64,000 bases of DNA, from assembly GCA_016618085.1 (NCBI GenBank), contig JABLTG010000020.1, forward strand, positions 98,815-162,814, given 5' to 3'. Each line of letters opens with the position of its first letter. The first letter of the stretch is position 1. The notes under the pieces were generated by a model. That model had not been told where the DNA came from, did no database searches, and saw only the letters and a program-made list of their open reading frames with translations. This DNA is from Neovahlkampfia damariscottae. Lineage: Eukaryota > Heterolobosea > Selenaionea > Neovahlkampfiida > Neovahlkampfiidae. The position numbers and the translations under genes were made by a program. Positions 16,406 to 64,000 of the stretch are shown piece by piece.

Positions 16406-18673
16406 TTATGATGTATTTCCATATTTCCAATCTTTAACAACGTTTCTATATTTTTCAGCTAAAATTGGAAAATTTTTAAAAAATGAATCATTTTCGTATA
16501 AATTTTCAACAACATGTTTTGCATGTTCTAAAATTTCATTTTCTTTTGGTAATTTTGTTAATTTTAAATAAGTTTTTAAATTTCCACTTTGTTTTAAACC
16601 AAGTAAATCACCTGGACCTCTTAATTTCAAATCCATTTCTGATATTTTAAAACCATCATTAGTTGCACATATAATTTCTAATCTTTCATTTGATTCTTCA
16701 TTCATTTTATTTTCATTTTTCATTAATAAACAATAAGATTGATCAATACCCCTTCCTACTCTACCACGTAATTGATGAAGTTGAGATAAACCATATCTTT
16801 CTGAATTTTCAATTACCATTACAGTTGCATTTGGTACATCAATACCAACTTCAATTACAGTTGTAGCAATTAAAATATCAGTTTCTTTATTTTTAAATTT
16901 TCTCATTTCATTTTCTTTTTCTTCTAAACTCAATTTACCATGAACTAAACCAATATTATATTTTTCAAATAATGAATTCTTTGATAAATTTTTAAAAGAT
17001 TCTTTTGCTGATTTTAAATCAAAAACATTTTCATTTTCATCAATAAAAGGATAAACAATATAAGCTTGATGACCATTTTCTAATTCAGATTTCAAAAAAT
17101 TTAACATTTTTTCTCTTTCATTTTCATTAATTATTGAAGTTTTAATAGGTTTTCTTTCTTTTGGTACATCATTTATTGTTGTAATTTTTAAATCAGCATA
17201 TTTTGTCATTCCTAATGATCTAGGTATTGGTGTAGCACTCATTAATAATAAATGTAAAACTCCTTTTTCTAACATAATTTGTCTTTGTGCAACTCCAAAT
17301 TTACAAAATTCATCAATTACTAACATTCCAATATTTTGAAAATTCAAATTTTCATTTAAAATAGTTTGAGTACAAACACATATTTTTGATTCACCTGATT
17401 CTAATGATTCTAATATTTCATTTCTTTCATTTTTACTTTGACCTCCAATTAATAATTTAACATTCTCTTTTTTTAAAAAATTTAATAAATAAGAATAATG
17501 TTGTTCTGCTAAAACTTGAGTTGGTGCAACAAATATTCCTTGATATCCAGAATCTAATGCTAATAATAAAGATACAATACCAACTATAGTTTTACCACAA
17601 CCAACATCTCCTTGTAATAATCTATTCATTTTTAATCCTGATTTTACATCATTTATAATTTCATGAATTGCATCTTTTTGACCTTTGGTTAATGGAAATG
17701 AAAGTGAATCTAAAAAGGATTGTGTATATTTTCCAATTCCTTTTAATTTTAAATTTTGTTTTCCAAGTTGTTTAAATCCTAATACTTCATTATTATATTT
17801 TATATTTGAATAAAATAATTGAAGAAATATACATTCATCAAATTTTAATCTTTTTTTTGCTTCTTCAATTCTTTGAATTGAATTTGGAAAATGTATTTGA
17901 GTATATGCATCTCTAATTCCTATTAAATTATATTTCTTTAAAATCCAAGTTGGTAAGTATTCTCTAATTTCGGAAAATTGAATTGCTTGTTGTATTAATT
18001 TTAATAAACTCTTTTGACCAATTCCACTTTTACTTAATACTTGATTCTTTTTGTAAATTGGTAAAATTTGAAAATCTAAATTTTCATAAACATAGAATTC
18101 AGGTTGAATAATAGTTAGTTTTGAGTTACTTTTTGATACTTTTCCTTTAAACCAAATTGTCAAATTTTTTGAAATGATATCTTTAATTTCATGTCGTAAA
18201 TATGAATTTCCTCTAAAAAAATATGCGCTTATTTGATTATCATCTTCTTCTGAACTATTTTTATCGACTTGTTGTATTTTTAAAATTCCAATTGGTTGAC
18301 TTCGATTTTTTATTCTAATTTGATCATAGTCAATCATTTTTCCAAGAAATGATACTACTTTACCATCATGGTGATCTGAGAAATTGTTTTTTAATTTTAA
18401 TTTTTTAAAGAAACCTGAAATATCTGAAATAGAAATAATTTCCGTCATATCTACATAATCTCGAGGATAATATTTAATGATATCTTCAATGGTGTTCACA
18501 CCTATTGAGTTGAAAGCTTCTACTCTTTTTGGTCCAATTTTACTTAAACTTCCAATATTTTCCTCAACTTTCTGAGAGAATGTTTAAATTTTGTTATTTG
18601 ATACCTTCGTCAAGGTTCCATAATATTTATACAACCGTATGAAACTCTTTTGAGGTGTTATTTTCTTGAGCAT
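16406..18673 (-). CDS. recG: RecG-type DNA helicase, probably mitochondrial
   Basis: RecG drives branch migration and fork reversal. An intron (18572-18604) joins a 23-residue first exon to the main exon, giving 744 residues. The first exon (MLKKITPQKSFIRLYKYYGT) is basic and acid-free, as in a mitochondrial presequence. The wedge-type start IGPKRVEAF, the OB domain, Walker A GDVGCGKT (near residue 344), SATPIPRS, the VHGK block, TTVIEVGIDVPNA and QLHQLRGRVGR are all present. Motif II is the oddity: it reads DEFC instead of the DEQH usual in RecG (codons at 17303-17314). Eukaryotic RecG is otherwise known mainly from plants and some protists. An organellar origin is likely. Confidence 0.92.
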
Positions 18674-61063: not shown

Positions 61064-63187
61064 TTATTTCTTTTCTTCTTCTGATCCATTTATTTTTCCA
61101 TTTGATTCTTTTCCATTCATTTTTTCAGCCATAAACTGTAATTTTTCTTGTTCCAATTTTTTTTTATTTTCTTCCATTTGATATCTTTCTTTATTCATTA
61201 ATTTTTCCAAATGATCTAATTGTTTTAATTTAAATTCAACTTTTTTCATTTGTTTTTCTAAAATTAAAGCAATTAATCTTTGAATTTCTCTTTCTTCTTT
61301 TATAGCTAAAACTTTTGCTTTTGCAGAAGCAGCACCTATTGCAGCACTACACATTGTTTTTGTATCTAACTCTTGATTCTTTAAATCAACAATATTTGGA
61401 TTATCTAAACTTTTAAATGATTGTAAAGCAGCTTGTGCAGCAGAAGCAGCAACTGTTGGATGTACCATTGATGCTAAAAATGCAACAGTTTGCATAATTG
61501 GATTATGTGAATCACTAAAAGGTAATGGATCAGTTTCTTTAATTTTTGGTTCTTGTAATATAAATTCATCTTCAATTGGCATTTTTAAAAAATATGATAA
61601 ACATTCTTCTTTTGTTCTTGATCCAACTGCAGATGAAATTTTATTCCAATCATCTTTGTGTACTTCAATTGACTATAGTAGAGAGTTTAAAAACTAAAAA
61701 TATCTTACTTTTAATAAACGTAATACTTCTTCTTGATTCCAATCTCCTTTATCTGTAATTTTTGGTATTGGTACTGTATAAGTTGGTTGTACTCCAAATG
61801 ATGGTAATTCTAAAGAAACTAACTTTTCACTAGGTGTATATTCATGTACTAATATAGATGGTTGTTCTGTTCCTGAAAATTTATCAGGTGATACTCCATA
61901 ATTAATTAAACCCCAGTGTTCTAAAAATGAAAATACTCTTATGATTGATGATATATCACCAGCTAAATACTTTCGACATTCAGTTGCTGACAGATATTTG
62001 TCGGAATCTTTTCTAAAAGTTTCAATCATAAAATTACGATATTGTTGATAACTAAGAAATTTTAAGTTTTTTTTTTTTTCGTCTTACATTTCTGGTGTTT
62101 TTGTTGTACTTTGAGAATCAAAAAACTCTGGAAGTGAACGTTTTTCAATTTCATTTATTTCATCAATATTGAACCAAGTAGCATGAAATGGTACAACTAT
62201 TGGTGTTTTAAAGTCTTCTGGTTTTAAATCATCTTTTAATTTTTTTGAATCTACTTCATCAAATGTAATTTTACGTTTTTGAGTTGTTGGTTCTAAATCA
62301 TAATCTGATTCTTCCATCCATTCATTAAATCTCTCTGAATCAACTAAAAACTTTCCTGACTAAATGAATAGATTTTAGAATTGTTTTTAAACTTACAAGT
62401 TTCCATATTTTTTTTGTTGGTTTTATTAAAATTTCTTCAGTTGGTTTGTTGATCCACTTATTGTATGAATTTGGAAAGTTTGTCCAATGGATTAAAGTTT
62501 TTTGATTTTTTATATAATCAACTGGTTTATATTCTTGAAGTGGTTTTAAATCACCATTATCAATTAAATGAGTAAAATTTTTTGTATCAATTTTTCCTTA
62601 TAACAAAATTAAAAAAAAAAAAAAAACCTCCAAATTTTGTAATTATATTTGCATATTTTTGAGCGTCTTCTTTTGTTACATTTGTGGAAAAATTAAAAAC
62701 TCTTTGATTCAAAAAATTATTCTTTTCTAATTCTCCTTTAATTTTTTTCATTAATTCAACTACTCTTGCTTTATTGTTGAAATCAAATTCATCATTCATC
62801 ATTTCTTGTTTATTTAAAAAGTAGGTTTTTAAAATTAAATGTAAAGACCCATTGATTTGAAAATTTTTGAACAACTCAGAATCAAGTTTCGTCATTTGGT
62901 TTTTTATATTTTCATCTTTTGACTGGAGAAAAAAGATCAATTTTTTTACTTTTTTTTTTTTTACTGTTAATCCGAAGAGTTTTTCATTCTCATGGATGAG
63001 TTTTGTGACAATTGAACCAAGTTGCGAACTGGAAATTGTTTTGTTTTGAATTTTTTCATCAATTATTAAATTCTAGTGGTTAGTTTCTTGTTTTATTTTG
63101 TTTTTTTACTTTTGCTATGTTATCTAATTGACTTAAAATTGGTTGTGTTTCAAACTCTTTATTTTCAAAGTCAAAACTTTTGTTCAT
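61064..63187 (-). CDS. SMARCC: SMARCC/SWI3 chromatin-remodelling subunit
   Basis: Seven exons (63110-63187, 62965-63072, 62628-62922, 62397-62596, 62088-62359, 61709-62051, 61064-61672) give 634 residues. The N-terminal chromo/BRCT-type module of SMARCC appears to be present (WKLSGKFLVDSERFNEWME). The SWIRM domain covers PFHATWFNIDEINEIEKRSL, the exon-spanning EIYQQYRNFMIETFR and FLEHWGLINY. A SANT domain (DWNQEEVLRLLK ... DDWNKISSAVGSRT) and the C-terminal coiled coil (TVAFLASMVHPTVAASAA ... LEKQMKKVEFKL) complete it. This is the scaffold of a SWI/SNF-type remodeller. Confidence 0.95.
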
Positions 63188-63659
63188 TTCCGTTATCCAA
63201 TCAAATCAATTTTTGGAAATGAATAAAATTATAGGAAAATACTTGATTTATTGTTGAATCATCAATTCCAGAAAATTGGTTGAAACATGAAACCTGAAAC
63301 TTTTTGAATTAAAATTTTGTTCGGTTTAGGAATGTGAAAAAACCTAATATAAGACTGATTCATTTGTTTAAAATGATTGGAAAATTCATGAAGAAAAACA
63401 AATCTATCAAAGACCAAGTTGTGTCCATTCAAAATTTGATAAACCATTAAAATGTTCATTTTTTACATACATTACATGATACATTCCAACTAATTGTTGA
63501 GAAATTATTTTTTTGAATTTATTAGGAGAAAAATGATTAGAAAAATGATCATCCCAAGTTTTCAAATTTCCCTTGAAGTTCTTGCTGGTTTTTCAACCGA
63601 TTGAGACTTAATCTTCCATGCATCACAACAAATTACAACCTGTGATATAAATTTTTATG
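63188..63659 (-). other. Gene-poor stretch with a coding-like segment
   Basis: A 61-codon open frame without an ATG at its left limit runs on the minus strand from 63592 to 63407 (KTSKNFKGNLKTWDDHFSNH ... SNFEWTQLGL). It looks like real coding sequence but has no start, promoter element or obvious partner exon. A second open frame (63459-63262) overlaps it. It may be the decayed end of the mobile element that carries the Fanzor-like gene, but that link is only proximity. Confidence 0.3.
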
Positions 63660-63731
63660 CAGTCGACAGGATTCAAACCCACAACCAATCTGAAGTCACC
63701 TAGTGTTTTACCACTAAACCATGCCCGACTG
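63660..63731 (-). tRNA. tRNA-like gene or tRNA pseudogene, anticodon uncertain
   Basis: A 72-nt sequence on the minus strand has a perfect A box (TGGTTTAGTGG) and a near-perfect B box (GGTTTGAATCC), and its ends can pair over seven bases (CAGTCGG with TCGACTG, one G-T). The D arm GTTT/AAAC is good. The anticodon stem is poor: with the loop read as CTTCAGA the anticodon would be UCA, which reads UGA, but alternative registers exist. The spacing between acceptor stem and D arm is not canonical. I therefore call it tRNA-like and do not assign an amino acid. Confidence 0.45.
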
Positions 63732-63785
63732 GACGACCAATAAAATTTTATTAATTTTATTTTGAATAGGTCGTTTTCCGCTATC

Positions 63786-64000
63786 TTAAAACTGACTTTT
63801 CCGTTCATTCTGATTAATCAGACCAGACATTAAAATCAAGGTTTCTTTCGGGATAGGACCGTTGCCAGCAGTACTGGCAGTTTTTGGATTTCCAATAAAA
63901 TTTTGTATATTCATCAGAAATATATTTCTTGCTCCATTATAATCTCTTGGAAGAGAAAAATTACAATATTTACAATTGAAATAATCTTTTTTTCCAAGTT
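63786..64000 (-). CDS. Probable Fanzor (TnpB-like) protein, C-terminal end only
   Basis: The frame is open from the right edge to TAA at 63786-63788, giving the last 70 residues of a protein that extends beyond the window. It starts with FNCKYCNFSLPRDYNGARNI. A CxxC followed at this distance by RDxNGAxNI is the second half of the zinc ribbon plus the RuvC-III aspartate block of TnpB, IS607-type OrfB and eukaryotic Fanzor RNA-guided nucleases. A tail of ~40 residues with two NQ-type elements follows. The rest of the gene, including the RuvC-I/II residues, is not visible. The base composition of the last ~150 bp is less AT-rich than the surroundings, in line with a transferred element. Confidence 0.72.
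   Translation of the reverse strand, partial: LGKKDYFNCKYCNFSLPRDYNGARNIFLMNIQNFIGNPKTASTAGNGPIPKETLILMSGLINQNERKSQF

Follow-up and report, generated by a model that had tools for sequence, protein, structure and literature searches.

What kind of gene ends at the right edge of the window, and does the tRNA-like sequence beside it belong to that gene? By the window we mean the whole stretch of 64,000 nucleotides analysed here. With a probability of roughly 0.77, its right edge cuts through a eukaryotic Fanzor gene and leaves the C-terminal end inside; this gene would most likely be a Fanzor2 (IS607-derived), carried by a transposable element in a compact, AT-rich, protist-like genome. We call this Fanzor probable, not proven, because the DPG of RuvC-I, the alternative glutamate of RuvC-II and the first CxxC of the zinc ribbon are situated beyond the window.

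Fanzors are defined by DPG in RuvC-I and by a glutamate six residues before the zinc ribbon, called Ealt; both marks are common to Fanzors and the cyanobacterial pro-Fanzors (PMC10711439). In protists, Fanzors are known from amoebozoa, stramenopiles and others (PMC3627910, Table 1) and also from Naegleria (PMC10432273). We here use "Ealt lineage" for Fanzors, pro-Fanzors and related TnpBs. Since the positions of DPG and Ealt lie outside the window, the tail of the protein, which is no part of the published definition, had to be taken as a proxy of the lineage.

The reading frame at the right edge

The frame comprises 213 bases of the minus strand (63998-63786). It is open from beyond the window edge to its TAA and is right-truncated (Table 1). 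Its translation begins LGKKDYFNCKYCNFSLPRDYNGARNIFLMNIQ... What is visible of the protein starts with LG, a position between the two CxxC knuckles. The first of these knuckles has to be sought beyond 64000, as have RuvC-I and the RuvC-II glutamate. Six residues separate the second CxxC from the RuvC-III aspartate (CKYC-NFSLPR-D), and the family spacing from zinc ribbon to RuvC-III is CxxC-x(4,8)-D (PMC10711439). Beyond this aspartate the frame extends for 51 residues, the range in 45 relatives being 15-66. The earlier note had recognised CKYC and RDYNGARNI in TnpB/Fanzor spacing within the last 215 bp of the minus strand, and the open frame of 70 codons and the Pfam match given below confirm it. 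A transposase or an element end was not seen within the window.

Table 1. Features near the right edge of the window
Feature	Position	Strand	Remark
3' end of a TnpB/Fanzor-superfamily gene	63786..63998	-	70 codons + TAA (63786-63788), open at window edge
CKYC, second CxxC knuckle of the zinc ribbon	63963..63974	-	six residues before the RuvC-III Asp
RDYNGARNI, RuvC-III	63921..63947	-	presumed catalytic Asp 63942-63944
C-terminal extension of the Fanzor-like ORF	63789..63920	-	
Strong predicted RNA folding across the stop codon	63711..63880	-	candidate omegaRNA/reRNA scaffold, placed by predicted folding; excess folding reaches 64000 inside the CDS
tRNA-like sequence	63658..63728	-	A box 63711-63721, B box 63669-63679, degenerate arms

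Superfamily and host

The sole Pfam match of the tail is PF07282 (Cas12f1-like_TNB), the zinc-ribbon/RuvC-III domain of TnpB (E = 1.1e-4). Its 22.7 bits are under the curated cut-off of 26.3, and of the 60 positions of the domain the final 21 are matched, its remainder falling outside the window. Other collections point in the same direction: guided_TnpB was matched in NCBIfam at E = 0.0053, far under its cut-off, a transposase family in PHROGs at E = 1.9e-4, and OrfB/Cas12f-type chains were the top matches of the single sequence in the PDB (E ~0.02). A profile of the relatives gives the tail 38.7 bits (E 5e-11), and the runner-up among 1664 six-frame segments gets 7.3; a degenerate DNA pattern for RDxNGA occurs once in the window and in 0/100 shuffles. 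By these two results chance is excluded. Judged by its sequence, the tail is the second zinc-ribbon knuckle plus RuvC-III of a nuclease of the TnpB/Fanzor superfamily.

The contig is eukaryotic. Among the neighbours are Plus-3/Rtf1, Isy1, CYTH, cation efflux, Vps16, NAT10 and F-box proteins and an mRNA capping enzyme domain. A SWIRM/SWI3 gene extends over several exons, its same-strand pieces being found within 61064-62940, and has a short GT-AG intron between 61582 and 61750. On the same contig, a RecG-like helicase with wedge and domain 3 is encoded at 16406-18499 (minus strand); it is possibly of organellar or bacterial origin.

The window contains 25.8% GC. The edge had been described as less AT-rich than the neighbouring genes, and 63786-64000 indeed has a slightly higher GC content (30.2%), but 50/297 bins of 215 nt reach the same value. 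We therefore rejected base composition as evidence for a Fanzor tail.

The branch of the family

The residue at the Ealt position served to class 80 distinct tails, which were taken from prokaryote genomes, phages and viral contigs. They were drawn from loci L001-L108, which had been gathered before the viral contigs were scanned with the RDxNGA pattern. The count was limited to tails from ORFs of at least 150 residues in which a D-x-N motif is preceded by a TS-type anchor. RDxNGA is present in 40 of the 45 Ealt tails and in 0/35 non-Ealt tails, some of the latter having been fetched via a D[FYI]NGA[RL][NG]I scan and having ADxNGA. All Ealt tails with DPG carry the motif (33/33), as do 7 of the 12 in which DPG was not detected. 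The non-Ealt tails show RDxNA[AS] in 20 cases and another residue before the D in 15. As to sampling, one viral scan used D[FYI]NGA[RL][NG]I and a later one RDxNGA; NGA is enriched among the viral relatives because the scan patterns themselves required it. Several viral loci also share one contig or are near-identical (e.g., L004/L006, L036/L040, L030/L031).

Profiles tell a similar story. The window tail obtains 38.7 bits with the Ealt+DPG profile versus 30.8 with the non-Ealt profile, a difference of +7.9; for the 33 left-out Ealt+DPG members the minimum is 8.4, slightly above the window's value. In 35/35 cases a left-out non-Ealt member is matched better by its own profile, the difference being at least 3.5 bits. 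The tail resembles the Ealt lineage more than other TnpBs, by a modest margin.

Relatives in genomes, viruses and plasmids

A test that needs no pattern is to search seven whole genomes (G001-G007) with the window tail alone. Thirteen places in Arthrospira (G001) came ahead of all others, with E from 8.7e-6 to 1.1e-4; this genome has 47 PF07282 matches. The three of the 13 places that were read share a common tail around RDWNGA. One is full-length with DPG, one sits in a frame of 253 residues and one is broken; two show the Ealt glutamate, one of these with DPG, and the frame of the broken copy, which belongs to the same family, opens just past the Ealt position. The top place in G002, with DPG and Ealt, has E 0.0185 (18.5 bits). 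In G007, which is archaeal, a non-Ealt TnpB (L118) is matched weakly at E 0.007 (18.6 bits). Best E values in G004, G005 and G006 are 0.35, 0.42 and 0.03, respectively; in G003 the tail finds nothing, although the Ealt locus L022 is in that genome. The Arthrospira ranking suggests that the tail picks copies of pro-Fanzor type first.

A scan of viral contigs with the tail alignment yielded eight loci, several of them on contigs found in the earlier viral scan. Of the seven that were read, L109, L111, L114, L115 and L116 have DPG and Ealt, L113 has Ealt and no detected DPG, and of L110 there is a short piece with Ealt. In L114, L115 and L116 a frame that we take to be an IS607-type TnpA precedes and overlaps the nuclease frame. 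The L114 nuclease is 44% identical to the window tail across 34 residues; in 16 aligned relatives, cyanobacterial ones among them, identity ranges from 25 to 42%. A single-protein scan of the viral contigs for close relatives found none, and the L001 query recovered only its own contig. By tblastn, matches were weak, with a best E of 0.2 in phages and 0.03 in plasmids, the latter presumably from haloarchaea.

Two further observations concern the relatives themselves. L002 (7859-10970) apparently contains nested IS607-type elements, in the order of a TnpA frame, a second TnpA with TnpB and then the Ealt-type tail split off from the first TnpB. In L001, L004, L022, L024, L033, L035, L036 and L037 most of the zinc-ribbon cysteines are absent, while the E, the TS anchor and RDxNGA are kept; these zinc-ribbon-poor nucleases of the Ealt lineage come from viral contigs, phages and bacteria.

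Predicted RNA folding around the stop codon

For an IS607 TnpB and for Fanzors, a scaffold RNA that overlaps the 3' end of the gene has been reported (PMC10711439, PMC10432273). In the window, 63729-63900 (minus strand), a segment chosen by eye, is predicted to fold with z -3.23, and 0/200 shuffles are as stable. A sliding scan with 170-nt windows leftward from the right edge gave z of -3.05 (64000-63831), -1.47, -2.64, -2.92 (63880-63711), -2.09 (63840-63671), -0.61 and -0.04; farther left, z stays around 0 except for -1.19 and -0.91. The strongest of these windows, 64000-63831, is wholly coding, and its neighbour is the one that dips to -1.47. Among 196 background windows, z was at or below -3.0 in 2 and at or below -2.5 in 7. 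The scan thus indicates that excess folding sets in within the coding part and continues past the stop codon, and that it has faded in those windows that contain the tRNA-like stretch in full. Among the Ealt relatives, z is -2 or lower over the stop in 27/45 and in mid-gene in 11/45, the means being -2.36 and -1.29, respectively. The predicted folding agrees with a guide-RNA scaffold overlapping the end of the ORF. Some repeats in the vicinity of the gene end, both direct and inverted, are AT-rich and were dismissed as element ends.

The tRNA-like sequence

A tRNA-like sequence had been placed in 63460-63785. Its A and B boxes are real, but it spans only 63658-63728 of that stretch. It begins 57 nt past the stop of the Fanzor-like gene on the same strand. 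The A box is perfect and the B box has one mismatch, with 31 nt between them (63721-63669, minus strand). An A/B pair at up to two mismatches is absent from 20 shuffled windows. The stretch has 46.5% GC, reached by 3/901 bins, against about 26% in the window. It is flanked, as read by eye, by a six-base CAGTCG/CGACTG pairing in a shifted register.

A tRNA gene at 63658-63728 is nevertheless rejected. The Rfam tRNA model gives it 19.6 bits versus a cut-off of 29, its fold is no better than that of shuffles (z -0.36), the predicted fold contains no cloverleaf, and ARAGORN at default settings finds no tRNA in the whole window. With a relaxed score, ARAGORN proposes six tRNAs within 400 nt; at least two of these overlap, and this result was discounted. 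The whole window contains no Rfam match at curated thresholds, and the seven matches at E up to 10 do not include the tRNA. A repeat family within the window was rejected too: blastn of 63400-64000 against the window gave only short matches besides itself, and an 18-base piece with the A box has no second copy there. Most likely, 63658-63728 is a tRNA pseudogene or a tRNA-derived repeat and an independent neighbour of the Fanzor gene.

In 45/45 Ealt relatives, a comparable A/B pair is absent within 300 nt after the stop; their best pairs have 4-7 mismatches, like random pieces of the same loci, as compared with one in the window. All of these relatives come from prokaryotes or viruses, in which one need not expect pol III boxes, so that the scan opposes a conserved link and not a eukaryote-specific one. 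ARAGORN found one tRNA in 46 relative loci, upstream of the nuclease in L030, a weak control in that the program misses the window's tRNA-like sequence too, L125 and L011 are one place, and there is little downstream DNA in L121, L124 and L125. Among the listed papers that mention both Fanzor and tRNA, no title reports a link. The word "tRNA" is absent from the main text of PMC10432273, PMC11423790 and PMC3627910.

Comparison with known systems

Fanzor2, as known from NlovFz2 of Naegleria lovaniensis (PMC10432273) and from mimivirus L79, shares with the window tail the eukaryotic setting, the CxxC and the RD, and also strong predicted folding at the gene end. The comparison has its limits, for the window gene is known from its tail only and no TnpA is in view. 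Mimivirus L79 (PDB 9b0l), a Fanzor2 with an Ealt-like NEYLTTKTC, has RDxNAA in place of the RDxNGA of the window tail; RDxNGA is therefore not required for a Fanzor2.

The pro-Fanzors, i.e., cyanobacterial IS607 TnpBs with DPG and Ealt (PMC10711439), have a signature like LGxxxxFxCxxCxxxxxRDxNGAxxI, as does the window tail. They differ in that the window's host is a eukaryote, and in sequence by the identities to the 16 aligned relatives given above. With Fanzor1 the tail has in common the motif [C4 zinc finger]-X(5,50)-RD (PMC3627910). The lineage tail profile has 34 PDB matches at E up to 10, and 0/34 are chains labelled Fanzor; accordingly, no closeness to a solved Fanzor1 is seen. Canonical TnpB of IS200/IS605 and Cas12f share PF07282 with the tail; they are set apart by RDxNGA, which the non-Ealt tails lack.

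Mode of action and alternative readings

Going by its family, the full protein would have a RuvC nuclease fold with a zinc ribbon. It would bind an RNA made from the 3' end of its gene and the right end of the element. The sequence just past the element end would serve as guide, and matching DNA would be cut next to a short motif. Such RNA-guided cutting may favour the retention or the spread of the transposable element that carries it.

The earlier suggestion of a Fanzor-like tail is borne out by the motif class, the profile difference, the ranking in Arthrospira and the eukaryotic context. The gene might instead be a canonical TnpB (Ecan) that a bacterivorous protist acquired from bacteria; it would not be a Fanzor in the narrow sense, yet would remain an RNA-guided nuclease. 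We consider this unlikely, for the motif count (0/35) speaks against it, and the first 13 matches in Arthrospira, of which three were read, are or look like members of the pro-Fanzor family. It can claim for itself that the non-Ealt profile, too, gives 30.8 bits, that OrfB/Cas12f-type chains lead the PDB matches, that the non-Ealt TnpB of G007 is on par with the pro-Fanzor of G002, that the 70 visible codons do not extend to the positions of DPG, Ealt and the first CxxC, and that eukaryotic proteins from other TnpB branches occur in hosts living closely with bacteria (PMC10432273). A somewhat better chance, perhaps one to be kept in mind, is given to a dead remnant, of which the 3' end of a Fanzor gene alone survives and the nuclease is inactive. 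Short and broken copies do occur in Arthrospira, and the window offers a tail alone, with neither element end nor transposase. Yet no stop interrupts the 70 codons, which retain CxxC, RD and NGARNI, and the frame ends at a usual distance from the aspartate.

The earlier note had also envisaged a link between the Fanzor, its 3' RNA and a tRNA-like transcript. The tRNA-like sequence would then be a functional part of the Fanzor RNA, be it a 3' processing signal or a source of guides. Its position shortly past the stop on the same strand, boxes that are not due to chance and the z of -2.09 in window 63840-63671, which covers most of the stretch, could be taken in favour. The link did not hold up: z falls to -0.61 and then to about 0 once the windows include the whole stretch, the stretch by itself gives -0.36 and 19.6 bits versus 29, an A/B pair like it is missing from the 300 nt after the stop in 45/45 relatives, and no title among the matches listed reports such a link. 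We regard it as very improbable. Hardly better are the prospects of a variant in which the right end of the element abuts the tRNA-like sequence; the guide would start in tRNA-derived sequence, and the nuclease would be aimed at tRNA genes or tRNA-derived repeats, i.e., at multicopy targets. If true, an element ending there would suggest a targeting preference.

Significance

The preferred reading remains a eukaryotic Fanzor, most probably a Fanzor2, of whose gene the end is in view. Fanzors are programmable nucleases of eukaryotes, and with every lineage the spread of IS607 TnpB into these hosts is better documented. A Fanzor copy in a compact, AT-rich, protist-like genome would extend the known pattern and change no concept.
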